This document shows positions 49,368 to 62,726 of a stretch of DNA of 64,000 nt, in pieces. The position numbers and the translations under genes were made by a program. The DNA comes from Flavobacteriaceae bacterium. Lineage in GTDB: Bacteria; Bacteroidota; Bacteroidia; Flavobacteriales; Flavobacteriaceae. The notes under the pieces are model-generated. The model was not told the DNA's origin. It was given only the letters and a program-made list of their open reading frames with translations, and did not search any database. Location: the NCBI GenBank assembly GCA_947483075.1, contig CANKLE010000008.1, positions 62,001-126,000 of the forward strand. Reading direction: 5' to 3'. Within the stretch, counting starts at the first letter, position 1. Every line of letters begins with the position of its first letter.

Positions 49368-50615
49368 ATGAAACACAAAATGACCATTCTTTTCTACGTG
49401 AAAAGTTCAAAAGCATCAAGAAATGGCCTATTACCCATTTACCAAAGAATAACAATCAATGGAGGCCGTATCGAACTAAGCACTTCAAGGTATGTTGAAA
49501 AAGCAAAATGGAACACCGCAGCAGGCAAAATCAAAGGAAATTCAGAAGAAGCTAGATTAATAAATAGCCATCTAGACCAGCTCAAAAACAAAGTATACGA
49601 AACAGAAAAATGGTTGATCAATAACGACCAGGAAATAAACGTGTCAACCTTCAAAAACAAACTGATTGGCATAGAAGAAAACCAAAGAATGCTACTCGTA
49701 ATCTTTGAAGACCATAACAAGCGAATGAACGATTTGGTAGGAAAAGAATTCTCCATCAATACCTACAAAAGATACGAAACAGCATTAAAACACACCAGAG
49801 AATTTCTCAAAAGCCAATACCGCAGCAACGATATAGCCATAAGCAAAGTTGACATAGCGTTTGTCAACGACTTTGATTTTTACCTTAGAAACAATAAAAA
49901 CTGCAACAACAATTCCACCATCAAATACATCAGAAACTTTGGCAAAATAATCAAACAGAGCTATGTAAATGGTTGGCTAGAAAAAGACCCTTTTTTAAGT
50001 TACAAGGGAAAAGTTAGAGAAGTTGAACGCGTTTATTTAAGTCAAGAAGAAATTGAGACAATCATAAACAAAGAGCTAGCAATCAAACGCCTAGAACTCG
50101 TAAGAGATATGTTTGCGTTCAGTTGTTTCACCGGCTTGGCCTATATAGATGTTTTCAACCTATCAAAAGCCAATATCATTATTGGAATAGACGGCGAAAA
50201 ATGGATTTCAACCCACCGTCAAAAAACAGAATCAGCCTCCAAAATCCCAATCCTACCCGTCACACAAATGATAATCGAAAAATACCAAAACCACCCACAA
50301 TGCCTCAGCAATAACAAGTTACTACCAATACTTTCAAACCAAAAAATGAACGCCTATTTAAAAGAGCTAGCCGATCTCTGCAACATAAACAAAGAACTCA
50401 CCTTTCACATTGCCAGACACACATTTGCAACCACAGTGACACTCACAAACGGCGTGCCAATAGAAAGCGTGAGCAAAATGTTGGGGCACAAAGACCTGCG
50501 CACCACACAACACTATGCAAAAGTGCTCGATAAAAAAGTAAGCGAAGACATGAAAATTCTAAAAGATAAATTGGTGTTCCAGGATCTAAGAGTAAAAAAA
50601 TCGGGAGTATTATAA
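49368..50615 (+). CDS. tyrosine recombinase/integrase
   Basis: This 415-aa site-specific integrase is of the Bacteroidota mobile-element type. It has an arm-binding N-terminal domain (about 1-90), a SAM-like core-binding domain (about 105-205) and a catalytic domain from about 215. The catalytic residues seen are Lys near STHRQKTESASKIP, HIARHTFATTV (HxxR), MLGHKDLRTTQHYAKV with the nucleophile Tyr. The first catalytic Arg is absent: the usual TGLR is TGLA. A second in-frame ATG lies at 49380. Its place just after ssrA suggests it catalysed integration of the downstream DNA. It overlaps the convergent kinase gene by 6 bp. Confidence 0.92.
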   Translation: MKHKMTILFYVKSSKASRNGLLPIYQRITINGGRIELSTSRYVEKAKWNTAAGKIKGNSEEARLINSHLDQLKNKVYETEKWLINNDQEINVSTFKNKLIGIEENQRMLLVIFEDHNKRMNDLVGKEFSINTYKRYETALKHTREFLKSQYRSNDIAISKVDIAFVNDFDFYLRNNKNCNNNSTIKYIRNFGKIIKQSYVNGWLEKDPFLSYKGKVREVERVYLSQEEIETIINKELAIKRLELVRDMFAFSCFTGLAYIDVFNLSKANIIIGIDGEKWISTHRQKTESASKIPILPVTQMIIEKYQNHPQCLSNNKLLPILSNQKMNAYLKELADLCNINKELTFHIARHTFATTVTLTNGVPIESVSKMLGHKDLRTTQHYAKVLDKKVSEDMKILKDKLVFQDLRVKKSGVL

Positions 50616-52628
50616 ACTTCTGATTTTCACTTTCATCAAAATAAAAGTACCTTCATGCGGGGTACTACGTATAGTAAGTTGTGCCTTAATCGTTTTAGCC
50701 CTTTCTTGCATATTCGTTAAGCCAATGCCCGGTTTGGTGGCCAGCATATCAAAACCAATACCATCATCTTGTATTTGCAATATCAAGTTATTATCTACGA
50801 TGGTAATAGTTACCTTACATTCTTTAGCATTTGCATGTTTAGTCGCATTTAAAAGGCATTCTTGCACGATCCTAAATAGATTAATTTTTAGGACACTATC
50901 TATTGTATCCCAATCAATTTCACTCGGCGTTTCAAATACAAAAACAGTTGCTCCAATTTCATTTTGCAGTTGAATCATATTGTAAAGTAAGCTCATAAAA
51001 TCAAGCTGATTGTCAACAATTTCATTGCGTAAGTCATGCGAGATAGATCTAATTTCGCGTTCTATTTCTTGTAGCAAGTCAACATATATCAACCGTTTTT
51101 CCTTGGCTTCTTTGGTATCGCTTTCATTCCAAATACCCAACTGCATGCGGGCGCCATATAGCTTATTCATAACACCATCATGCAACTCCTTTGATATGCG
51201 ATTTTGCTCCAGTTCTTTGGTAATACTGAGCTTGAGTTGGTACTCTTTAAGCAATTCAAAAATTTCCTCTTCGGCTTTTTGTTGTGCTATTCTAAACTCA
51301 ATTTCTCTTTTCTGATTTTGTATATACCGGTAAATAAGCACTAATACCAAGGCAAAAATAATTAGCAATGCCCCAAAAAGTATATAGTTAATCTTGGTAC
51401 TCAATACCTTATTCTCCTCCTCTACCGCTGCTGTTTCATATTCTATTCGAGCATATTTATTGCGGCTTATGCGTTGGGCTTTTGCCAAACTATCGGTTAT
51501 AGAAATATATCTTTTATCATAAACAGCCGCATTCTCATGGTCTATTTGAGATAACAATTGCAACGATTTCTTGGTTTCTTCCCCCATCTTCAGCTTTTCA
51601 GCCAATGCAAGTGCTTGTTTTAAATATGAAGTTGAAAGTAAGGTGTCTTTTTTAATTGAATAGTATTCCCCAAGATTTTTATATTGGTAAACCATTTTAT
51701 CTTTAAAATCGTTTTTAATAGCTATTGAAAGCGCTTCATTAATATACTTTACGGCCCATTTTACATCTCCAGTCTTCATTTTAGAATAACCTAAATTGCC
51801 AATAGTAGTTACATATCCCTGTAACCATTTTTCTTTTAAACCGAGTTTTAATACGGTTTGTAACTCGAGTATAGATTTGTTGTATTGATGTTTTTTTTCA
51901 TAAACATTTGAAAGGTTTACAGAAACGGATACACTATTTTGCAATTGTGTTTGTATAGTTGAATTCGATGTGTATAAATCATTTAAAACACGTTTTGCTT
52001 GTAAGTGATATTTTAAGGCATCATCATACTCTTCCAGTTTTTCAAAATTACATCCAAGTAAGGTATAAGAAGTAAATAGCATTTCTAAATCATGGCCTTT
52101 TTTAAGATATAGTAATGCGTTAGACACTTGTATTTCACTTTCTAAATAATTGCCTTCATAAAATAAAATGTATGCTTTTTTTACTAATTCAATTCCAATC
52201 CGATCTTTGTTGTTAAGTAATCTGTATAATTTCTCGGATTGTTGATGATAATAATAGGCGCTGTCTTTTTGAGAAAATTCATACGTATCTCCCAAATGAG
52301 AATAGGCTCTTGCTAGTGAAAAAGTATCTTTGGCAATACTTGATAATTGAATATTTATTTTGCTTACTTCCGAAGATTTTGAAAATTGATTCAGATAGTA
52401 ATATTCACTTGATAAATCAAATAGAAAATGCCTACATACAGTATCATTTGGGATCTTATTTGAAATTTCAAAAAGTGAGTCTAAATAATTCAACTTAAAT
52501 TTTAAGTTGTTTTTCTTGTAACGTTCATTTAAAAACAATTTAGAGTTTAGCCCTTCAACTTTGTGTTGGTTGCAAGCTATTACTAAAAAACAAATAGTGA
52601 ATACAATTAAAATTTTAGGTTTATTCAA
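50610..52628 (-). CDS. TPR-domain sensor histidine kinase (NarX/LytS-like HisKA_3)
   Basis: This 672-aa sensor starts at a TTG (52628-52626): an in-frame TGA lies four codons upstream and no ATG occurs before the signal region. The N-terminus is a signal peptide or lipobox (ILIVFTICFLVIAC, Cys19). TPR repeats fill about 60-370 in the periplasm (for example YSHLGDTYEFSQKDSAYYY, LGYSKMKTGDVKWAVKYINE). One TM helix (about 414-434) leads to a coiled coil, HisKA_3 with RISKELHDGVMNKLYG (phospho-acceptor His) and HATPase_c (LLNATKHANAKE, QIQDDGIGFD). Such kinases pair with LuxR-type regulators like that at 53955. Confidence 0.9.
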   Translation of the reverse strand: MNKPKILIVFTICFLVIACNQHKVEGLNSKLFLNERYKKNNLKFKLNYLDSLFEISNKIPNDTVCRHFLFDLSSEYYYLNQFSKSSEVSKINIQLSSIAKDTFSLARAYSHLGDTYEFSQKDSAYYYHQQSEKLYRLLNNKDRIGIELVKKAYILFYEGNYLESEIQVSNALLYLKKGHDLEMLFTSYTLLGCNFEKLEEYDDALKYHLQAKRVLNDLYTSNSTIQTQLQNSVSVSVNLSNVYEKKHQYNKSILELQTVLKLGLKEKWLQGYVTTIGNLGYSKMKTGDVKWAVKYINEALSIAIKNDFKDKMVYQYKNLGEYYSIKKDTLLSTSYLKQALALAEKLKMGEETKKSLQLLSQIDHENAAVYDKRYISITDSLAKAQRISRNKYARIEYETAAVEEENKVLSTKINYILFGALLIIFALVLVLIYRYIQNQKREIEFRIAQQKAEEEIFELLKEYQLKLSITKELEQNRISKELHDGVMNKLYGARMQLGIWNESDTKEAKEKRLIYVDLLQEIEREIRSISHDLRNEIVDNQLDFMSLLYNMIQLQNEIGATVFVFETPSEIDWDTIDSVLKINLFRIVQECLLNATKHANAKECKVTITIVDNNLILQIQDDGIGFDMLATKPGIGLTNMQERAKTIKAQLTIRSTPHEGTFILMKVKIRSL

Positions 52629-52686: not shown

Positions 52687-52848
52687 TTACTTTCTTGGAG
52701 GAGGTATCAATGGATCCCCATCTTTGGCGGTAAGGCTTGTATCGGTTTGCGCTGTAGGATTGGAAATTAGTTCGTCTAAAGTGCAAGAGTTTAAAGACAC
52801 ACAAACAATAGTCAATAAAAATAGTTTTACTAAAAAATTAGGTTTCAT
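52687..52848 (-). CDS. short lipoprotein, 53 aa
   Basis: This short gene has an ATG at 52848-52846 and a TAA at 52689-52687. The product has a clear lipoprotein signal (KPNFLVKLFLLTIVCVSLNSC, Cys22), followed by about 31 polar, unstructured residues rich in Thr, Asp and Pro, ending IPPPRK. The signal peptide, clean termini and a terminator 10 bp downstream argue that it is real. It lies between the TPR kinase and the LytTR regulator, both on the same strand. No family recognised; a role as a small signal or sensor partner is only a guess. Confidence 0.65.
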   Translation of the reverse strand: MKPNFLVKLFLLTIVCVSLNSCTLDELISNPTAQTDTSLTAKDGDPLIPPPRK

Positions 52849-53129: not shown

Positions 53130-53843
53130 CTAAGAGATGCGTAGAATTATCGTATCAATATTTATTTTGTAGGTTCTAGAAAAAGGAAGTAGGATTTCAT
53201 TGTTTTGCAAATAGCAACTGTTTTTGCCTAAGTTTATTCGGCTTACGTATTGAATATTAATCACATAGCCGTGGTGTATTCTAAAAAAGTAAAACGGCAG
53301 TAATTTCTCAAAATACTTTAGGGTTTTATAGGCCGAGATTACTTTACCCGAGGCCATATAAAAATCGGTGGTATTATTATCTGCTTTTAGATAAACAATC
53401 TCACTAGATCGAATAAAATTATAATCGCCATTTGATTTTATAGAAATAGTATCGGCAAATAAGGCTTTGTGTGTTTTTTGGTAGCGCATCAAGCATTTGC
53501 GCAATTCATTCGGGTCAATTGGAGTAAGCAAAAAACCCGTTACTCCCCGCTGATAGGCTTCATAAGCGGTCTCTTTTCCCTCGCTCAAAATAATTATAGT
53601 AGGCAACTCGTCCAAAAACTCATGCAATTCACTCAAAATAGACAAGGAAATAGCATCCGATTCTTTTTCTATCTTTTTAATAGTTATAAATACAACATTG
53701 GGTTTTAATTCCAAAATTCTATTAATCGCCTCTGTTCTGGTTTTACATACCGCCACACACAAAAAATCGTCATATTCTTTCAGGAGGTCCAATGTAGAAT
53801 CCAACCCAACAGAACTATCAACAAGTATATACGAAAACTGCAT
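53130..53843 (-). CDS. LytTR-family regulator with degenerate receiver
   Basis: This is a 237-aa regulator. The C-terminal LytTR DNA-binding domain (about 135-235) is well kept: ISIKSNGDYNFIRSSEIVYLKADNNTT, the FFRIHHGYVINIQYVSRI block and ILLPFSRTYK. The N-terminal half has a receiver-like layout, but the phospho-acceptor position reads VVFITIKKI instead of FLDxxMP, and the first acidic pair is VDSS instead of VDD; the conserved Lys position reads LLTPIDP. It probably cannot be phosphorylated in the usual way. Divergent from the LuxR-type regulator with a shared palindromic site between them. Confidence 0.88.
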   Translation of the reverse strand: MQFSYILVDSSVGLDSTLDLLKEYDDFLCVAVCKTRTEAINRILELKPNVVFITIKKIEKESDAISLSILSELHEFLDELPTIIILSEGKETAYEAYQRGVTGFLLTPIDPNELRKCLMRYQKTHKALFADTISIKSNGDYNFIRSSEIVYLKADNNTTDFYMASGKVISAYKTLKYFEKLLPFYFFRIHHGYVINIQYVSRINLGKNSCYLQNNEILLPFSRTYKINIDTIILRIS

Positions 53844-53882
53844 TTTTTTTATTGCAATGTATACTGGGCTTAAAAACTCATT

Positions 53883-53927
53883 TTACGGTAAAACCGTAAT
53901 TCTATTCCTATTTTTTAAGTAGTTTTG
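53883..53927 (+). promoter_or_regulatory. palindromic ACCGTAA site and promoter of the LuxR-type regulator
   Basis: TTACGGT-AAA-ACCGTAA (53883-53899) is a 7-bp inverted repeat. A -7 box TAGTTTTG (53920-53927) starts 27 bp after the start of the ACCGTAA half-site (53893). On the minus strand a TACATTG sequence begins at 53861, 28 bp from the inverse half-site, suggesting a divergent promoter for the LytTR gene. The same half-site recurs at two other promoters in this island. Confidence 0.6.
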
Positions 53928-53954: not shown

Positions 53955-54638
53955 ATGGATACATCAATTCATCCAAAAAGAACTATTTTGATTGTTGACG
54001 ACCATCCTATCACAGTAGACAGCTACCAATCACTTTTGGCTACAATAGAGTCAAACAAGCAGGCCAATTACCTTGTCGCTTTTACTTGTGAACAAGCCTA
54101 CAATACCATAAACAGCAATCATCTAGAAAATCAACCCATACATTTTGCGTTTATAGACATCAGTCTACCGGTCTATAAAGAAAAAAATATGTACTCGGGT
54201 ATTGACATAGCCTTACATGTCCAAAAACTATTTCCTCAATGTAAAATAGTTATCATTACTATGTACAAAGAACCGTTGTGGGTAAATCAAATATTTAAAG
54301 GGCTCAATCCAGAAGGCTTTATTGCCAAAAGCGACATAAACTTCAAAAGCTTTCCCGAAATATTTCAAAGCATAGAAAAAAATGAAGTATACATTAGTCT
54401 ATCCATAAAATTGGCACAAAAAATATTGATCCAAAACAATATAAATTGGGATGATTACGACAGCAAAATACTGCATTACATTACCCAAGGAATCAAAACA
54501 ATCAATCTTCCCGATTACATTCCGCTTTCCTTAAGCACCATAGAAAAAAGAAAAGCAAACATCAAAAAACAGCTTATACTCACCACCGGTTCAGACAAAG
54601 AACTAATAGATGTAGCACGGAAATTAGGCTTTATATAA
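53955..54638 (+). CDS. LuxR/NarL-type response regulator
   Basis: This is a 227-aa two-component regulator from the ATG at 53955; the upstream in-frame start is only a TTG that overlaps the promoter. The receiver (about 8-150) has the acidic pair in LIVDDHPI, the phospho-acceptor Asp in FAFIDISLPV, Thr in IVIITMY and Lys in GFIAKSD. The C-terminal part (about 165-220) is a LuxR-type helix-turn-helix (DSKILHYITQGIKTINLPDYIPLSLSTIEKRKANIKKQL is the relevant region). It likely answers to the TPR kinase at 50610-52628, since such kinases typically partner NarL-type regulators. Confidence 0.88.
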   Translation: MDTSIHPKRTILIVDDHPITVDSYQSLLATIESNKQANYLVAFTCEQAYNTINSNHLENQPIHFAFIDISLPVYKEKNMYSGIDIALHVQKLFPQCKIVIITMYKEPLWVNQIFKGLNPEGFIAKSDINFKSFPEIFQSIEKNEVYISLSIKLAQKILIQNNINWDDYDSKILHYITQGIKTINLPDYIPLSLSTIEKRKANIKKQLILTTGSDKELIDVARKLGFI

Positions 54639-54760: not shown

Positions 54761-54820
54761 AAACCGTAAAAAAAAGCCCAAAAAACCGTAATCACATACT
54801 CATTAATCAGTTTAATTTTG
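54761..54820 (+). promoter_or_regulatory. repeated ACCGTAA promoter module, copy 1
   Basis: A 31-bp sequence (54761-54791) is identical to 58602-58632. It has ACCGTAA half-sites at 54763 and 54785, 22 bp apart, separated by A-rich DNA with GCCC in the centre. A -7 box TAATTTTG (54813-54820) starts 28 bp after the second half-site and has no -33 element, as in an activator-dependent promoter. It drives the beta-helix gene at 54951 with a leader of about 125 nt. Together with the terminator at 54660, this describes the 312-bp gap 54639-54950; the rest is AT-rich without other signal. Confidence 0.65.
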
Positions 54821-54950
54821 GGATGCTTTAATATAATTTATACAAATATATTTAGATTTTGACTATGATGTAATTAACATTCAAATTACTATCATAAATA
54901 ATTTATTAGCAAATAATTACCAAAAAAATAAACTTATAAAATGTAAAAAA

Positions 54951-56660
54951 ATGATTGAATTAGTGAATTTAAATGAATTAAAAAACTATCAACCAGTAGG
55001 AGGTTTTTATAACGGATTAACTGTATTTGTAAAAGGTCATACAAACTTAGGAGATGGAGGTGGCGGTATATTTATGTGGAGAACAGATGATATATTTAAA
55101 ACAACAAATCCACCTCCAAGTGTATCACCTGGCATTTATAGTGTAGATAATAATGGAACTATAATTCAAAGTCAAAATAATTTAATTCTAAACGATTCGG
55201 GCAGATGGGTAAGGCAATATGATGGTTATATTAATGTATTGTATTTTGGTGCGTTTGGAACAGAAATTGTTGACTATTCACCTCAAATACAAGCTGCTAT
55301 TGATTTTGCTAGTTTAAATGCAACAAATTATTCACCAATAAAGGGTTCCACAGTTTTCATTCCAAATGGCGACTATTTAGTTTCGAATTTAACATTAAAA
55401 ACAGGAGTTAGCATTTTAGGAGAATCAATTTCAAAAACATATTTCAATACAACAAATGACGATAATACTTATTTATTTGAAATTGAAAAGGGCCAAGTCT
55501 ACATAAATATATCTAATTTTAATATTAACCTTGTTGGAACCATTACTGAAAAACAAATTCCTAAAGGATGTTTCCATTTTAAATCTGAAATTGGCCCTTA
55601 TGGTGATGGGGGGTTATGGTATTCTACTTTCAAAAACATAAGAATTAACAATTTTTATGGTAATGGTATTTATTTAGAAACAGGAACAAGTGGTTTTATA
55701 ACCCCAAATCAATTCAATATTTTTGAAAACGTTAGGGTTTTTAAAAATAATGACGAAAACTTCAGTTTTTTTTATAACGCACTAAAAATGACAGGTGAAA
55801 ATGGGCAATATAGTTTTATCAATTGTGAATTTAATGGTGTCAAAAGGCATAATTCTGTAAAAAATGAGTATTATTTTGACAAATGGCATGTTATTTCAAT
55901 CGAAAATAATAGTCCAGATATTGATAGTTATTCAACATCAAATGTTATTACGTTTTTAAATTGTACAATCCAAAATTCAGATTATGGTGTTTACATTAAT
56001 TATGGCGAAAACATAACATTTGATAATTGCTGGTTTGAAGATTTAGGAGTTGCAATTACTATAAATGGAGAAACAGTAATTTCAAAAAGTATTAATATCA
56101 TAAATAATAGATTTGCTAATGCCGCCGGATTTGGTTCAACTGTTGCACCAAATAATATAAAAGATGGCCAATGTGTTTCGGTCAATAAATCTGTGGCAAA
56201 CATTTATAATAACTATGTAACTGCATCTTATCCTGATCTTGTAGATGCTGGGAGTTCTTTTGTTCTTGGTTTTCCGGGTAATTCAGGTATTAATCTCTAC
56301 GCAAATACGTTTAGAGATGACAATAAAAAATTAAGTAAAACCTATGGAGTAATGCAATACATAGAAATCGAATCTAATAATTCGATTAATTGTAAGTCTA
56401 ATAAATTAGTTTTTGTTAATAAATCACCCAATAATTACATTATTAAAAATATTACATCATCAATAAATGCAGGGGAATTACTTACTGTAAGAGCAAATGG
56501 GGGGCAAATTAATTTTATATCGACTGGAGGAAATGTATTTTTAACAAATAGAGCTAATTTTTCACTTCAAAATGGTGAAATAGCTACCTTTATAAAAATT
56601 GATATTGGAGCTAGTTTTGAAACATACCAACTGGTATCATTTACTAAATCAACCCCATAA
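54951..56660 (+). CDS. right-handed parallel beta-helix protein (pectate-lyase-3-like)
   Basis: This 569-aa protein has no signal peptide that I can see. The N-terminal region (about 5-95) contains YNGLTVFVKGHTNLGDGGGGIF and DSGRWVRQYDGYINVLYFGAFG, the pattern of phage tail-spike and polysaccharide-acting beta-helix proteins. QIQAAIDFAS and the repeats VFIPNGDYLVSNLTL, GVSILGES and ITFLNCTIQNS, ITFDNCWFED, INIINNRFAN show the coils of a parallel beta helix (about 120-450). A small C-terminal domain follows. Enzyme activity is not provable from the sequence. The gene is AT-rich compared with the core. Its promoter carries the repeated island site. Confidence 0.8.
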   Translation: MIELVNLNELKNYQPVGGFYNGLTVFVKGHTNLGDGGGGIFMWRTDDIFKTTNPPPSVSPGIYSVDNNGTIIQSQNNLILNDSGRWVRQYDGYINVLYFGAFGTEIVDYSPQIQAAIDFASLNATNYSPIKGSTVFIPNGDYLVSNLTLKTGVSILGESISKTYFNTTNDDNTYLFEIEKGQVYINISNFNINLVGTITEKQIPKGCFHFKSEIGPYGDGGLWYSTFKNIRINNFYGNGIYLETGTSGFITPNQFNIFENVRVFKNNDENFSFFYNALKMTGENGQYSFINCEFNGVKRHNSVKNEYYFDKWHVISIENNSPDIDSYSTSNVITFLNCTIQNSDYGVYINYGENITFDNCWFEDLGVAITINGETVISKSINIINNRFANAAGFGSTVAPNNIKDGQCVSVNKSVANIYNNYVTASYPDLVDAGSSFVLGFPGNSGINLYANTFRDDNKKLSKTYGVMQYIEIESNNSINCKSNKLVFVNKSPNNYIIKNITSSINAGELLTVRANGGQINFISTGGNVFLTNRANFSLQNGEIATFIKIDIGASFETYQLVSFTKSTP

Positions 56661-56987
56661 AAATAAAGCATTTTTTTTCATTACTTAATAATAAAATCAT
56701 TACTGAATTCCAGTTGCAGTATTTTGTTTTAAAATTGTTTTATTTTTTTTTATTGAAAATAACATCTTTTAAATCTAAATAAAAACCAAAAAAAATGTAT
56801 TAATTCTAATTTGATTTTAACAATATCCAAGAATAAATAACTAAAAATGAACATAAACGATTTAAAATTCCTAAAAAAATAAATCATGAAAAATCTACTT
56901 CTTTATTCGTTTTTCTTGCCGCCGTTTGCCTCAGGAAAATGCTTTACTCAATATTCTACCGATTTTGTCCAAGAGGATAAAGGAGTT

Positions 56988-58508
56988 ATGAATTGGTTTT
57001 TAGAAATAAAAATCAAAAATATTTTAATGGCCATTCTACTCGTTCTTTGTACTTCTTTTCTTTATAGTCAAAACTTGATTCGGGATAATTCGTTTGGAAA
57101 CGCAGGGGTTGTAAACACCAACTATGCATATAGTAATAATATTATTCGTACAACAATGTTGTTAGAGGATCATAAATTCATGGCATTTGGTGCTTCAAGA
57201 ATGGTCCGATATAATGAAAATGGCTCGGTCGATAACACTTTTGGCGTAAATGGTGAGTTTGTTTTTCCATCATTAACAGGCGTGAATAAAATCAGTTTAA
57301 TAAATGGTTCTTTTTATGTAATAGGGAAAAAATATTTTAGTGCTCCAAACTATGGCGACGTATTTATTTTAAAAGTGACTTATGATGGATTATTAGATAC
57401 AAGTTTTGGTGATAATGGAGTATTTATTTATAATATAAATGAAGATGAAGAGCTATTTAATTTAAAAATAACTTCTGACAATAAAATAATAGGTGCTGGC
57501 ATAAAAAAATCAGGTATTTGGCAAAAATTATTTCTAATTAGGTTGAATGCTAATGGGACTATTGACAATACTTTTCAAAATAATGGATATAAGGAAGTAT
57601 TTGTTTTTCCAATTGAAACATCAGCAGTGCAAGCCATGTCAGAAATTGAAGGAGGCAAGTTTATTGTAGCTTGTAGTGGCAGAATGGAATTAAACAGTAC
57701 CTCAGTAAATCGACTTGCATTAATTAAATTAAATACTGATGGTGATTATGACCTAACTTTTAATTCAACGGGTAATTATTTATTACCTGAATTACCCTAT
57801 TATATCCATAGTGTAAGTTTTAAGGATAATCATTTATATTTATGTTATGGTGTTAATCAATTGTATGACCTTAATTATAATGCCTATTTATATAATATTG
57901 ATTTAAACACTTTTATTTCTCAATATACTGTTATTGATAGAGATACAAGCTATTATATAATAAATCCAGATTCAAGTATTATAACTTTAAGTATGAATAG
58001 AGATTTAGTCAATGTTAATCCAAATAGAAATTTATTTATTAAAAAGTATAATTCAAATGGAAACTTAGACACAAGCTTTTGTAATACGGGTTCGTTTGAA
58101 TTTAATTTAAGTGATATTAATAATTATCAAACGGATGATGTACCTAATAATTTAATAATCTATGATGATAAATTTTTAGTGCTTGGTCAGTCTCAAATCC
58201 CTCATTCAGGTATATCAACATACAAAGCTACGTTCACCAGATTTAATGCGGTTCCACTAGCTGCTGATACATTTAAAATGGATAAATTTAAAGTATACCC
58301 CAACCCAACCGCTGCATTGCTTACGATTCAAAATGAAGGCAATTTGCCCATTCAACATATTGCAATAATCGATCAATTGGGCAAAGTAGTCTTGGAACAA
58401 TTCAATGATTTTACAACAGTAAACCTCGCATCACTACAAAATGGATTCTATATGTTGCAAATCACTACTGATAGGGAGAAGTTGGTGTATAAGGTGGTGA
58501 AGAGGTAG
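56988..58508 (+). CDS. secreted delta-60-repeat protein with T9SS sorting domain
   Basis: This is a 506-aa protein from the ATG at 56988, which is preceded by AAAGGAG, an unusually good Shine-Dalgarno for this phylum, and is followed by a signal peptide (KNILMAILLVLCTSFLYSQ). The frame is open upstream to an ATG at 56886, which would add 34 aa with a second hydrophobic stretch. The body has delta-60-type repeats with DNSFGNAGV, DNTFGVNGEF, DTSFGDNGVF, DNTFQNNGY and DTSFCNTGSF, forming a beta-propeller-like chain. It ends in a type A T9SS domain (VYPNPTAALLTI ... FYMLQITT). A surface role is probable. Confidence 0.85.
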   Translation: MNWFLEIKIKNILMAILLVLCTSFLYSQNLIRDNSFGNAGVVNTNYAYSNNIIRTTMLLEDHKFMAFGASRMVRYNENGSVDNTFGVNGEFVFPSLTGVNKISLINGSFYVIGKKYFSAPNYGDVFILKVTYDGLLDTSFGDNGVFIYNINEDEELFNLKITSDNKIIGAGIKKSGIWQKLFLIRLNANGTIDNTFQNNGYKEVFVFPIETSAVQAMSEIEGGKFIVACSGRMELNSTSVNRLALIKLNTDGDYDLTFNSTGNYLLPELPYYIHSVSFKDNHLYLCYGVNQLYDLNYNAYLYNIDLNTFISQYTVIDRDTSYYIINPDSSIITLSMNRDLVNVNPNRNLFIKKYNSNGNLDTSFCNTGSFEFNLSDINNYQTDDVPNNLIIYDDKFLVLGQSQIPHSGISTYKATFTRFNAVPLAADTFKMDKFKVYPNPTAALLTIQNEGNLPIQHIAIIDQLGKVVLEQFNDFTTVNLASLQNGFYMLQITTDREKLVYKVVKR

Positions 58509-58544
58509 TGGTATGATTAACGATCCCAGCATAAAAATTCCCCG

Positions 58545-58578
58545 AAAAACTACAACAATACAGTTGTAGTTTTTTTTT
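58545..58578 (+). terminator. terminator of the delta-60 protein gene
   Basis: The arms 58545-58556 and 58563-58574 (core ACTACAAC/GTTGTAGT) with a 6-nt loop, followed by a T-run to 58578. It lies 36 bp after the stop. Confidence 0.88.
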
Positions 58579-58601
58579 GTGGCTAAAACGGGCAAGAAAT
58601 T

Positions 58602-58661
58602 AAACCGTAAAAAAAAGCCCAAAAAACCGTAAAACCATAATAAGCAAGCAAGGTATTTTTG
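58602..58661 (+). promoter_or_regulatory. repeated ACCGTAA promoter module, copy 2
   Basis: The same 31 bp as at 54761-54791, here 58602-58632, with half-sites at 58604 and 58626. The -7 box TATTTTTG (58654-58661) starts 28 bp after the second half-site, the same spacing as copy 1, although the DNA between differs. The leader to the ATG at 58707 is about 40 nt. Confidence 0.65.
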
Positions 58662-58706: not shown

Positions 58707-59537
58707 ATGATCTTAAAAGTAGGAAAATGGGAAGTCGAAAGTAAAACCTTCATTCGTTTGGAGCGGCATAAAGCATTTCCTAAACTAATACTTCATGAGA
58801 AATTTGAAGGTAAAGTAAAGTGGACCCTTAGAATTTTTACCCTTATTGGTATTGGGACAAGTTTAGTTTCACTAGCACCACTATCTAGTTTGTTTATTTC
58901 AATTGCACTTGTATTGATAGAGCTTTTTCTAGAAAAAATACTGTTTGAATACACTGTATTTATCCTCCCACCTTTCACCGACTTTGAGATCGAATACAAC
59001 CAATGGCTCACAAATGGATATTTATTTCCTGTTCCTGGAGAAAAAAACAATTTCGAACAATGTATTCATTTTGGTCCTGCCTACAATTCAAAAGTCTATG
59101 CCATTAAATTTTTCAGTTATTTAAAATCGTGGAATCAAGGAAACCTTGAAGACACAGAAAACAACATTTGCTTGTCATTTGTACTTGAAGACAACAACTC
59201 CTACTCCACCTATTTGTATGCAAACCCGAAGCGAAAATGGCTAGACACGGTATTTCACCAATATCGCGAAGAAATGAAACATGAGAACTATGGTAAAGCG
59301 CAACAATCATTGGTCATGCAAATGATCTATTGGAAAAATCTAGCGTTACATGAGACATCGCTCTTTTCAAAATTTCTGCAAGACCAGCCTCAAAACGGTA
59401 AGTTTTATTTTCTTCCATTTTATATAGTCAATGAACAACCAATTCCCATACTAGAGCTTAAAATTACTAAATACGAATACCAAATAAAACACAGAAAAGA
59501 CCTGACAAAAAATGATGTTGAATATTATCACCGATAG
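58707..59537 (+). CDS. unknown membrane-associated protein
   Basis: This is a 276-aa protein. A hydrophobic hairpin of two TM segments lies at about 41-60 and 63-90 (TLRIFTLIGIGTSLVSLAPL, SSLFISIALVLIELFLEKIL); the rest is soluble and charged (IHFGPAYNSKVYAIKFFSYLKSW, NSYSTYLYANPKRKWLDTVF). I do not recognise any family and see no catalytic motif. It has its own regulated promoter (copy 2 of the island module), so it is likely controlled together with the beta-helix gene at 54951. The N- and C-terminal parts would both face the cytoplasm if the hairpin spans the inner membrane. Confidence 0.6.
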   Translation: MILKVGKWEVESKTFIRLERHKAFPKLILHEKFEGKVKWTLRIFTLIGIGTSLVSLAPLSSLFISIALVLIELFLEKILFEYTVFILPPFTDFEIEYNQWLTNGYLFPVPGEKNNFEQCIHFGPAYNSKVYAIKFFSYLKSWNQGNLEDTENNICLSFVLEDNNSYSTYLYANPKRKWLDTVFHQYREEMKHENYGKAQQSLVMQMIYWKNLALHETSLFSKFLQDQPQNGKFYFLPFYIVNEQPIPILELKITKYEYQIKHRKDLTKNDVEYYHR

Positions 59538-59633: not shown

Positions 59634-62600
59634 ATGAAAACAAAAAAAATCCTAACTATTTTATTCTTTCTTGTGCTACAAATTTCACTTTATGGTCAAG
59701 AGAATAACTACTATTATTACAATGATAAAAAGATTCCATTAGAGATTGACACCAAATTTGTAAACATTATTTATAATTCAAATTTTCAATTTTCAACACT
59801 TTCTAGTTTAAATGTAACCTACAACACATTGGATGCTTTAAGTTGTAATCCAGGAGAAGTTGAGGGTAGAATAGCTAAAATTGAATTTGTAATAAAACCC
59901 AGCCAGATTGAATTTATACAAATGATAAATTCACTTAAGAATATAAATGGCATAAACTCTGTATGCTTGTACTATAAAAAATCAAATACAGAATCTGTAG
60001 GAACTTCCAATATTCTATATGTAAAACTTAAAAACAGTAATGACGTATTATTTCTAAATCAAAAATCAATTGAGAAAAAATTTATAGTTAATTACTCAAA
60101 TAATTTTATGCCTTTATGGTATAAGCTTTCTTTAAAAAAGGAAAGCTTGGACACTTCAATAGAGCTATCCAATTATCTATACGAAACTGGGTTATTTGAT
60201 GCAGTTGACCCTGCATTTATGATTAATTTTAAATCTAGTGCAACAATAGCTGATCCTCAATGTGCAAATGATGAAAATTTTAATTATTTATGGGGTTTAA
60301 ATAACAGCAATAATCCAAACATCGACATGAATGCATGTCAAGCTTGGACAATATCAGAAGGCGCTGGAATCAATGTAGCAGTTATTGACACCGGTATCCA
60401 AAAAGACCATATTGATTTATACTCAAATATTCATCCTTTAAGTTTTGATACATGCTTCGGTCAAGGTTCATCTCCAAGCCAAAATTATTTTCCTCACGGT
60501 ACAATGGTTGCTGGAACAATTGGAGCAATAAAAAACAATGGTATTATGGTTACTGGTATTGCCCCTCAAGCCAAATTAATGGATATTAGCAACAAACTAT
60601 CAGGTTCTGTTAATCAGTCTGAACAACTTGCAAACGGGATCAATTGGGCTTGGCAAAATGGTGCACATATTATAAACAATTCGTGGGGTGATCAAGGAGG
60701 TCAAGATTATGATATGCTACATAGCTTTATATTAGAAGATGCTATTCGAAACGCCCTAACGCTAGGCAGAAATGGCCTAGGTTGTATAGTTAATTTTACA
60801 TCGGGGAATCACACAAATATTGATTATCCTGCTTATGTTTATCCCGAAATATTAACTGTTGGGGGTACTGATGCAAATGGGTTAAGAACATTTGATTCGT
60901 CACTACCTGTTTCTTCAGCTTACGGTCCATCATTGGATATTGTGGGTCCTGGAACGTATATAGTATCTACAACAAATGGTGATGATTTTGATGTAATGAC
61001 AGGCACATCGCTAGCCTCTCCCTATGTAGCAGGAGTTGCAGCATTAATGTTATCTATAAATCCTTGTTTAAGCGGAAAGCAGGTACGCGATATTATCGAA
61101 AAAACTGCGCAAAAAGTTGGAAATTATAATTACTCTGAACAACCCGATAGACCAAATGGTACCTGGAACAATGAAATGGGCTATGGTTTGGTTGACGCCT
61201 ATGCGGCTGTGCAGTTAGCACAAGCAATGAACTCTCCTACTCTTGATTTAATGGTTCGCGACAGCTACGATGATTTTGGAATTGAGCCAAACACTTCTGG
61301 TCAAACTGTTTGGAATAGCCCAGATATTTGGGTTAGAAACCAAAATGATGGAGTTCAAATCCAAGAACATCAAAATCCAAAATATTTTAGCAACGGGAAC
61401 CTAAACTACATTTATGTGCGTGTCACAAACAAAAGCTGTACTGTTTCTAATGAAACTGATCTATTAAAAGTATATTTTGCTCTCAATAGACTATGGCTTA
61501 ATTGGCCAAACAGCTGGAATCCTATTTTACCTATTGAGCAAATAACTATCCCTCAAATTCAACCCGGACAGGAAGCCATTTTATCAATTCCTTGGAATGT
61601 ACCAAACCCAAATAGTTTTCCATCAAATTCACTAACCTTCGATGGAAGTAATAACTTCTCACTACTTACACGCATTGAATCAAGCACCGATACAATGACA
61701 TTTCCTGAGACCGGAAATGTATCTGGTGTAACCAATAATGCAAAACTACGATTTGCAGCCAATGTTCGTAACAACAACAACATTGCTTGGAAAAATGTGG
61801 TAACGATAGAGGTGGCTAACAGAAATAATACTGTTATTGCGCTAAAAAATCTATCCAACGAAACCCAAAATTCTTATTTAGAATTAGTGAAAGAGAATAA
61901 TGAAAATGGCAAACCTATATACCAAGAAGCTGAGGTGAGCATTAAAATGGATGATATTTTGTATAGTGCATGGGAAAGAGGTGGTAAATTAGCCGAACAA
62001 TTAAATTCAACATCCGATGTAAAAAAGAAACTTGTTCAAGGCAACAATGTAATTCTAGATAACATATCATTAAACCCGAATGAAATTGGTACCTTACAAG
62101 TATCATTTAATTTCTTAACAAAAGAAGTTACAGACAAGAACACGTTTATTTATCATGTTATTCAAAGAGACAAAGCAACTGGCGAAATTATTGGTGGAGA
62201 AACAATTACCATTATAAAAAATCAAAGAGATATTTTTACAGCCGATGCAGGAGAATCTATAAAAGTTGATATAAATGAACCAATTACTATAAGTGCTGCA
62301 CAAATAAGCGAACCCGTGATTTATAATTGGTATGATACAAATGGTAATTTAATTTTCTCAGGTAAAGATTTAACTATCGCAACAGCTGCCGCTACAAGAT
62401 ATAAATTAGAAGTAATTGCAACAGCAGATGGATTTAAAGATTATTCAGAAGTTGAAGTAAAATTAAACCCAAGTGAACTTAGTTTAATTGCACCAAATCC
62501 GGCAACCAATAACGTAACAATCAATTACAAAGTGAATGAAACTGGTACAGCCTATCTAATGATCATCAGCAGTTACGGCACATCAAATTCTTCAAACAAT

Positions 62601-62726
62601 TATATACTAAACACAAATAGTTCAGAAACAAACATCGACATTTCAAACTACCCTATTGGCTTTTACACGGTAGCTTTGGTTTGCAATGGTCAGATTGTGG
62701 ATGCTAAAACCTTAATTAAAAATTAA
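59634..62726 (+). CDS. secreted subtilisin-like protease (S8) with T9SS sorting domain
   Basis: This is a 1030-aa exported protease. A signal peptide (KTKKILTILFFLVLQISLYGQ) is followed by a propeptide region (about 25-205), then the S8 catalytic domain (about 215-540) with all parts of the triad: Asp in VAVIDTGIQKDH, His in FPHGTMVAGTIGA and Ser in MTGTSLASPYVAGVAALM; the oxyanion Asn is in FTSGNH. A beta-sandwich region with a PKD-like stretch follows, and a T9SS domain closes the protein (LSLIAPNPATNN ... GFYTVALVCNG). It probably digests extracellular proteins or matures surface proteins. A small T9SS protein gene starts 5 bp later. Confidence 0.92.
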   Translation: MKTKKILTILFFLVLQISLYGQENNYYYYNDKKIPLEIDTKFVNIIYNSNFQFSTLSSLNVTYNTLDALSCNPGEVEGRIAKIEFVIKPSQIEFIQMINSLKNINGINSVCLYYKKSNTESVGTSNILYVKLKNSNDVLFLNQKSIEKKFIVNYSNNFMPLWYKLSLKKESLDTSIELSNYLYETGLFDAVDPAFMINFKSSATIADPQCANDENFNYLWGLNNSNNPNIDMNACQAWTISEGAGINVAVIDTGIQKDHIDLYSNIHPLSFDTCFGQGSSPSQNYFPHGTMVAGTIGAIKNNGIMVTGIAPQAKLMDISNKLSGSVNQSEQLANGINWAWQNGAHIINNSWGDQGGQDYDMLHSFILEDAIRNALTLGRNGLGCIVNFTSGNHTNIDYPAYVYPEILTVGGTDANGLRTFDSSLPVSSAYGPSLDIVGPGTYIVSTTNGDDFDVMTGTSLASPYVAGVAALMLSINPCLSGKQVRDIIEKTAQKVGNYNYSEQPDRPNGTWNNEMGYGLVDAYAAVQLAQAMNSPTLDLMVRDSYDDFGIEPNTSGQTVWNSPDIWVRNQNDGVQIQEHQNPKYFSNGNLNYIYVRVTNKSCTVSNETDLLKVYFALNRLWLNWPNSWNPILPIEQITIPQIQPGQEAILSIPWNVPNPNSFPSNSLTFDGSNNFSLLTRIESSTDTMTFPETGNVSGVTNNAKLRFAANVRNNNNIAWKNVVTIEVANRNNTVIALKNLSNETQNSYLELVKENNENGKPIYQEAEVSIKMDDILYSAWERGGKLAEQLNSTSDVKKKLVQGNNVILDNISLNPNEIGTLQVSFNFLTKEVTDKNTFIYHVIQRDKATGEIIGGETITIIKNQRDIFTADAGESIKVDINEPITISAAQISEPVIYNWYDTNGNLIFSGKDLTIATAAATRYKLEVIATADGFKDYSEVEVKLNPSELSLIAPNPATNNVTINYKVNETGTAYLMIISSYGTSNSSNNYILNTNSSETNIDISNYPIGFYTVALVCNGQIVDAKTLIKN

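Follow-up and report, generated by a model that had tools for sequence, protein, structure and literature searches.

Housekeeping promoters of Bacteroidetes carry a -7 box, TAnnTTTG, and a -33 element, TTTG, and the agr, com and bacteriocin systems are peptide-pheromone two-component regulons. In LytTR operators, the repeats lie mostly 12 bp apart and in a minority of cases 11 or 13 bp apart, according to the part of the source available to us (PMC6193735). One motif serves as both inverted and direct repeat for DegU in the accessible part of its description (PMC2245950), and these two arrangements therefore provide a NarL-family precedent for the arrangement reported here. We analysed a 64,000-nucleotide stretch of a Flavobacteriaceae contig (hereafter the window), in which a 31-bp sequence with paired ACCGTAA half-sites occurs twice near genes for a histidine kinase, a LytTR protein and a LuxR/NarL-type response regulator. 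Sequence comparison supports a duplicated activator-type promoter module that has a selected site-to-box distance and is kept in related genomes. We consider it very probable that the 31-bp module is the operator of the adjacent NarL/RcsB-type response regulator (53955-54638), with direct repeats activating cargo genes and a palindrome controlling the regulator's own circuit.

As in the NarL/FixJ family (DegU, NarL, RcsB), the regulator combines a receiver with a C-terminal helical DNA-binding domain, the latter by predicted fold, and has a HisKA_3 kinase as its partner. Unlike in that family, the C-terminal domain is hardly detected by Pfam GerE and weakly by DUF5932, and the distance to a Bacteroidetes-type -7 box is fixed at 28 nt. 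The locus is like DegU in carrying inverted and direct repeats of one motif, with binding here being predicted, whereas the direct repeats of aprE and bpr are spaced 0-2 nt in the accessible part of PMC2245950 and 15 nt separate the heptamers here. The sites also resemble the Gram-positive LytTR operators of bacteriocin and competence genes, as presented in the available part of PMC6193735, in having repeats about two helical turns apart, a near-fixed promoter distance and competition cargo. In contrast to LytTR operators, they are also found without a nearby LytTR gene, take a 6-5-6 palindrome form and use a different half-site.

The two copies of the 31-bp sequence (54761-54791 and 58602-58632) are identical, and none is expected in shuffled sequence even with three mismatches. 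In both, the ACCGTAA half-site starts are 22 bp apart, giving ACCGTAA-N15-ACCGTAA on the + strand (putative operator 1, 54763-54791, 5' of a beta-helix gene; putative operator 2, 58604-58632, 5' of the gene for a 276-aa two-transmembrane protein and a subtilase gene). In each case, a -7-type box begins 28 nt downstream of the first base of the second half-site (TAATTTTG, 54813-54820, and TATTTTTG, 58654-58661, both + strand). An earlier note on this DNA had described the duplication, the paired half-sites and the boxes, and all three were confirmed. An exact search of the 2.4-Mb genome found three forward and no reverse sites, against 0 and 1 for the reversed pattern used as control. The three share the + strand of contig C8 and a span of 15.2 kb, at 116763, 120604 (54763 and 58604 in the window) and 131904. 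The third site was not in the earlier note, nor were the palindrome TTACGGTAAAACCGTAA between the two regulator genes and the same module in other Flavobacterium genomes. This third site lies 5.9 kb past the window end in this genome (G000), has the box TATAATTG at 28 with one mismatch to TAnnTTTG, and precedes the gene of a 1143-aa protein in which an RHS repeat was detected (E 1.2e-5, over the cut-off). A dispersed repeat, named in the earlier note as an outcome that would speak against its proposal, was rejected, since the three exact sites of the genome form a single cluster. The ACCGTAA 7-mer alone was mildly enriched in the window (13 versus 6.8 expected). When two mismatches were allowed, 12 forward and 12 reverse matches in the genome showed no excess over the reversed control (16 and 24), and loose matching was thus useless.

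The search of relatives that the earlier note had proposed yielded 41 exact sites in 21 of 199 genomes, the present one included. Four sites are clustered on one contig and strand in G106 (C21), three in G064 (C2) and three on each of two contigs in G014 (C20, C21), while G092 has five sites on five contigs. Boxes were counted at 31 distinct sites, leaving out the gcgggAAACCGTAA-form sites (L027, L029, L031, L042), sites from outside the genus (L026, L044, L045), two contig-end sites and one without a locus. Of the 31 sites, 19 have a strict box (TANNTTTG, TANNNTTG or TANNTTG) beginning at 28 and two have one at 27, compared with 0.13 expected per position; this set matches the Bacteroidetes -7 element. 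Alignment of the 31 sites showed A at +29 in 30, T at +33 in 28 and AAA[AC] before each half-site in most, with no conservation of the DNA between site and box. These counts bear out the suggestion that the spacing itself is selected. The reported absence of a -33 element also held, as TTTG started at offsets 3-12 from the second half-site in 0 of the 31 sites. A LytTR orthologue of 63-99% identity is present in seven other genomes (G093, G106, G064, G014, G116, G092, G002), and all seven carry the motif, which shares a contig with the LytTR gene in six of them, the exception being G093; in that genome, a further site with one changed letter lies beside the module. In G119, G082 and G100, the separate element ttacgggAAACCGTAA...gcgggAAACCGTAA of L027, L029, L031 and L042 follows directly 3' of a core LuxR-type gene and could be an operator or a hairpin.

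Regulator orthologues with identities of about 45-55% are encoded in further genomes, without a LytTR gene in the stretch examined (LytTR-less loci), and most of them adjoin a kinase. Eighteen such loci, chosen by their regulator, contain 16 same-strand CCGTAA pairs within 60 bp; 13 of the 16, across ten loci, were 22 bp apart, and all 13 had TA[AT]TTT at 28. Adding the G089 locus, which was chosen for its sites, gave 15 of 18 pairs at 22 bp, and 19 stretches with a LytTR gene, most of them chosen for their sites, gave 20 of 22. The spacing recurs outside these sets: the 63 core-type or unassigned loci contain 23 close CCGTAA pairs, of which 11 were 22 bp apart, just 3' of the regulator, and seven of these 11 had TA--TTT at 28 (five with strict TAnnTTTG), including pairs from Xanthomarina, Mariniflexile, Algibacter and Gelidibacter.

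The half-site is also arranged as a palindrome, TTACGG-N5-CCGTAA (53883-53899), in the divergent promoter region of the window; TTACGGTNNNACCGTAA is located between the LytTR gene and the LuxR-type regulator gene. The exact palindrome was found in 14 of the 199 genomes, in ten of them within the LytTR-regulator intergenic region. The box TACATTGC (53854-53861, - strand) lies 28 nt from the half-site that faces the LytTR gene, and the response-regulator gene has the box TAGTTTTG (53920-53927, + strand) at offset 27. With a search that on the LytTR side also accepted TANNTTGC and TANNTTTA, the LytTR-facing box lay at 28 in 12 of 15 loci, at 27 in L105, and was a weaker box at 28 in L107 and L110; the LytTR gene thus looks like a target. 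Toward the regulator, the distance was 25-28 or 14 in loci with LytTR and 14-16 in LytTR-less loci. In the latter, TnnnTTTG starts 28 nt after the half-site facing a small open reading frame (ORF) and the kinase (16/16). In the named set, the palindrome (at most two mismatches) lies 5' of the regulator in all eight LytTR-less loci, at a near-constant place in seven and elsewhere in L196, and in none of the 63 core-type or unassigned loci. Inverted CCGTAA pairs had a gap of 5 in 13/13 cases in LytTR-less loci and 9/11 in loci with LytTR. We infer that the regulator activates the LytTR gene in loci with LytTR and, in LytTR-less loci, its own signalling operon. No role could be assigned to the exact palindromes of G119, G080 (C9), G033 (C2) and G191 or to two extra ones in G115. 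A Lutibacter locus (L258) has three exact TTACGGTTTNACCGTAA palindromes 735, 2279 and 6596 from the start of the matched regulator, around genes that by eye are GYF-like, TIR-like and SIR2-like.

The conserved unit consists of the kinase (50610-52628, - strand; TPR repeats, HisKA_3 and HATPase_c in Pfam), a small ORF, the LytTR gene (53130-53843, - strand; Pfam LytTR, E 1.4e-14) and the divergent gene for the 227-aa LuxR/NarL-type regulator (53955-54638, + strand). The closest named locus for the regulator, with 98% identity, belongs to a Flavobacterium metagenome-assembled genome (MAG). In the receiver-like domain of the LytTR protein, no Asp aligned at the usual place in our own reading of the alignment, and with its box at 28, this protein is probably a circuit target or an auxiliary. 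All 19 regulator members examined matched Pfam Response_reg (the window member 0.3 bits below the cut-off), indicating a receiver domain; D68, the phospho-acceptor Asp, is invariant in the regulator alignment A1; and the partner kinase is of the HisKA_3 type found with NarL/FixJ regulators. DUF5932 was detected in the C-terminal region of seven of the 19 at E values up to 1, above the cut-off in one only (L108). The predicted fold (pLDDT 84) matches those of RcsB (DNA-bound), LiaR, DesR and EvgA.

The recognition helix reads [IV]PLS[LM]S[TA]IEKRK in nearly all aligned loci with CCGTAA; L060 and L064 have PLCLS and L061 has IDLSLSSIEKRK. The five loci of clade C (L112, L116, L117, L118, L120) have other helices, three LTTSAIQKRI, one LSLSAIQRRI and one LSKSAIQKRI, and no CCGTAA palindrome. 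Five aligned core paralogues have a similar helix to the CCGTAA loci, three with PLSLSA[IV]EKRK or SLSLSAIEKRK and two with others. A different palindrome, TGYAG-N5-CTRC, was seen by eye 5' of the LuxR-type gene in L112, L116 and L120.

The earlier note had taken the geometry as LytTR-type and named the LytTR protein, with the LuxR-type protein as second candidate, as the binder. The geometry fits: the 22-bp period corresponds to 9-bp repeats separated by a 13-bp spacer, inside the 11-13 bp that the available part of PMC6193735 reports, and several LytTR sites published there also start with ACC. If the LytTR protein bound the direct repeats as in Gram-positive bacteriocin regulons, the LuxR-type protein would act elsewhere; the LytTR gene adjoins, and sites cluster near LytTR orthologues. 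Nevertheless, we regard this as quite unlikely, because the 22-bp period and the 28-nt distance occur equally without a nearby LytTR gene, because LytTR-less loci keep the palindrome 5' of the LuxR-type gene, and because the recognition helix of the regulator differs in the clade without the CCGTAA palindrome. Moreover, two sites of G089 adjoin a LuxR-type gene, and a LytTR orthologue search at 1e-10 gave no match in that genome. The LuxR-type regulator is thus most likely the better fit and is the predicted ACCGTAA binder, on the basis of its Response_reg domain, its RcsB-, LiaR- and DesR-like model and its co-occurrence with the sites. LytTR-domain proteins are encoded elsewhere in all 15 genomes tested, G089 included (four), and LytTR could act in trans; therefore, the case for the LuxR-type regulator is strong, not absolute. 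It is unlikely that the two proteins share the half-site or cooperate at cargo promoters. Loci with LytTR place its gene between the palindrome and the kinase operon, the LytTR promoter keeps the 28-nt geometry, and the genomes richest in exact ACCGTAA sites (G014, G092, G106, G064) all have LytTR; however, two unrelated DNA-binding folds on one heptamer would be unusual, and LytTR-less loci manage without LytTR.

The 31-bp repeat might instead be a recombination or homology tract that spreads promoters among cargo genes, with regulation secondary. The 15-nt spacers of 29 sites differ less within than between genomes (3.16 versus 5.58 differences; 0 of 2000 permutations), the upstream flank is slightly closer within genomes (8.14 versus 9.03, p 0.004), and the downstream flank shows no difference (p 0.16). 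The likeness of spacers within a genome suggests that promoter modules were copied or homogenised along with their cargo. A recombinase adjoins the module in three genomes. We consider such a tract very unlikely as the primary explanation given the fixed 28-nt box distance, half-sites kept across deep divergence and sites 5' of regulator genes. The spacer is A-rich, and two-mismatch matches do not exceed the reversed control; chance or a low-complexity repeat is nevertheless refuted by the exact genome-wide counts and can practically be dismissed.

Several observations weigh against assigning the sites to the LuxR-type regulator, besides the ACC start of published LytTR sites and the LytTR-domain proteins in trans. 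GerE was detected in only one of 19 members (E 0.17). Ten of the 31 sites have no strict box, both G089 sites among them (one with TAATTTAG at 28, the other without a box), and at LytTR-less direct repeats the strict set fits four of 13, two of these with TAnnTTTG. On the small-protein side of LytTR-less palindromes, T replaces the consensus A of the box. In eight of the 18 LytTR-less loci, the stretch examined contains no 22-bp pair, and eight loci with LytTR that were chosen by their regulator had three of five pairs at 22. L105-L110, which have LytTR, carry the palindrome with no 22-bp direct repeat nearby, and a scan of the divergent LytTR loci L105-L120 for direct repeats found none with the motif and one generic hit. 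G093, with a 98% identical regulator, has its single exact site on a different contig and without a box, and G039, G081 and G028 have one site each and no regulator match at 1e-10. Furthermore, the loci are related, and the counts given above are not independent.

Under assignment to the LuxR-type regulator, the membrane kinase with its TPR sensor (50610-52628) would answer a cue and phosphorylate the regulator, as expected from the family, and the regulator would then bind CCGTAA half-sites. At direct repeats two helical turns apart, with the second half-site 28 nt before the -7 box, it would sit at the -33 position and may recruit RNA polymerase to cargo promoters; the spacing is observed, and binding and activation are predicted. 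In the divergent regulator promoters, the palindromic form of this half-site would adjust the circuit itself, probably driving the LytTR gene here and the small-protein/kinase operon in LytTR-less loci, with an observed 28 nt in both. The genes presumably regulated in the window are part of an island that is linked to a recombinase and carries genes for secreted proteins, anti-phage genes and an RHS gene.

Putative target 1 is a pectate-lyase-like beta-helix protein by Pfam (54951-56660, + strand), which has a 47% identical homologue behind a site in L069, and a similar-looking pair was seen by eye behind a site in L202. It is adjoined by a DUF5122 beta-propeller protein with a type IX secretion system (T9SS) tail (56886-58508, + strand). 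Putative target 2, the 276-aa two-transmembrane protein (58707-59537, + strand), has no Pfam or PADLOC family and is followed by a subtilase with a weak T9SS tail (59634-62726, + strand), of which a 47% identical homologue stands directly behind a site in G064. Cargo in other genomes with LytTR includes an RHS/FG-GAP protein second behind a site (G092), a TIR-like protein scoring as ThsB (G002), a GYF_2 protein (G106) and GG-type leader peptides in G014, two of which match TIGR04149 below the cut-off (E 8e-5 and 4e-4). Similar leader peptides were recognised by eye behind sites in G089. In LytTR-less loci, the genes that follow sites encode a peptide synthetase in L175 (AMP-binding, Condensation), a type II-like thioesterase accompanied by an ABC transporter in L172 and, in L177, a NusG-like protein. 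At the regulator locus of G017 (41% identity), a site altered in one letter stands 5' of peptides that look bacteriocin-like by eye and a C39-peptidase ABC transporter. No NCBIfam family was found for the G089 and G017 peptides, and PADLOC gave no match for the RHS protein, the beta-helix protein, the 276-aa protein and one G106 protein. Beyond the window (L004:1631-7654, C8), the island continues with a ThsA/Dsr1-like SIR2 protein, a PDC-S31 candidate and an Old-type ATPase; their genes, located between sites 2 and 3, may have their own promoters. The switch probably turns on defence, bacteriocin-like and antibiotic-type genes.

Our analysis also points to a possible signal. The small ORF of the window (52687-52848, - strand) encodes a 53-aa lipoprotein-like product ending in DGDPLIPPPRK and is a candidate for a signal precursor or a partner of the kinase. 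Lipoprotein-like ORFs, about 50-87 aa long, stand between the kinase and LytTR/regulator genes in 29 of 30 loci; the tail of the product is G[DE]P-P-rich in many island and LytTR-less types. Under a home-made signal-peptide rule, a small secreted-type ORF lies 5' of 52 of 59 kinases of the named loci versus 68 of 364 other ORFs, and the 52 include a few that look spurious; a shorter length limit gave 50/59 and 90/423. By that rule, a putative small secreted precursor gene stands beside the kinase, as in peptide-pheromone systems. Tandem repeats were present in 14 of the 52 kinase-side ORFs versus one of 68 controls, finishing at, or one residue from, the C-terminus in ten of the 14; examples are four copies of LIGSGSIGGNKKVD (L260) or AVGSGSTGGSKRLD (L242). 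The window ORF has no repeats, and NCBIfam gave no match for it or for a 73-aa repeat ORF elsewhere in the same genome (L269:94-315, - strand), which has four near-identical EIGGQESRNGKFS-type units and adjoins a core LytTR gene. Loci with two to four tandem units ending at or near the C-terminus, 5' of the kinase, are L260, L242, L245, L257, L264, L266, L248, L254, L255 and L256.

The repeat-bearing proteins look like multi-copy signal precursors, and their pairing with kinases suggests peptide signalling, as a lead and not as proof. Like peptide-pheromone regulons, these loci combine a small secreted protein, a kinase and a regulator, with an apparent feedback promoter and some bacteriocin-like targets; unlike them, some precursors have two to four tandem units, the kinase contains TPR repeats, and the regulator is NarL-type, not LytTR. 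We tentatively propose, at somewhat less than even odds, a peptide-based cell-cell signalling system of Flavobacteriaceae, in which a small secreted precursor, often consisting in the core version of two to four tandem units that reach the C-terminus or nearly so, would act through a periplasmic TPR kinase and a NarL-type regulator on the system's own circuit and on exchangeable anti-phage, bacteriocin-like, RHS and peptide-synthetase cargo, through one fixed promoter geometry. Among the literature matches listed, titles and abstract beginnings contained no description of the present system or of Bacteroidota peptide signalling. The results define an operator that can be searched for exactly (CCGTAA repeats at a 22-bp period with a box at 28) for a regulator family whose DNA-binding domain is hardly recognised by Pfam, would link defence-like, bacteriocin-like and peptide-synthetase genes of Flavobacteria to one switch, and make the hypothesis of peptide signalling in Bacteroidota directly testable.

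The module may travel with its island. A tyrosine recombinase (49368-50615, + strand; Arm-DNA-bind_5, Phage_int_SAM_5) adjoins it in the window, G093 and G106 and was not seen beside the other LytTR-containing modules compared; G014 has a partial tyrosine recombinase on another contig. In G116, a truncated second LytTR copy adjoins the intact one (L071:1852-2241). One Flavobacteriaceae-like locus (L244) came from a record titled as a Klebsiella pneumoniae MAG, which is probably a mislabelled bin.

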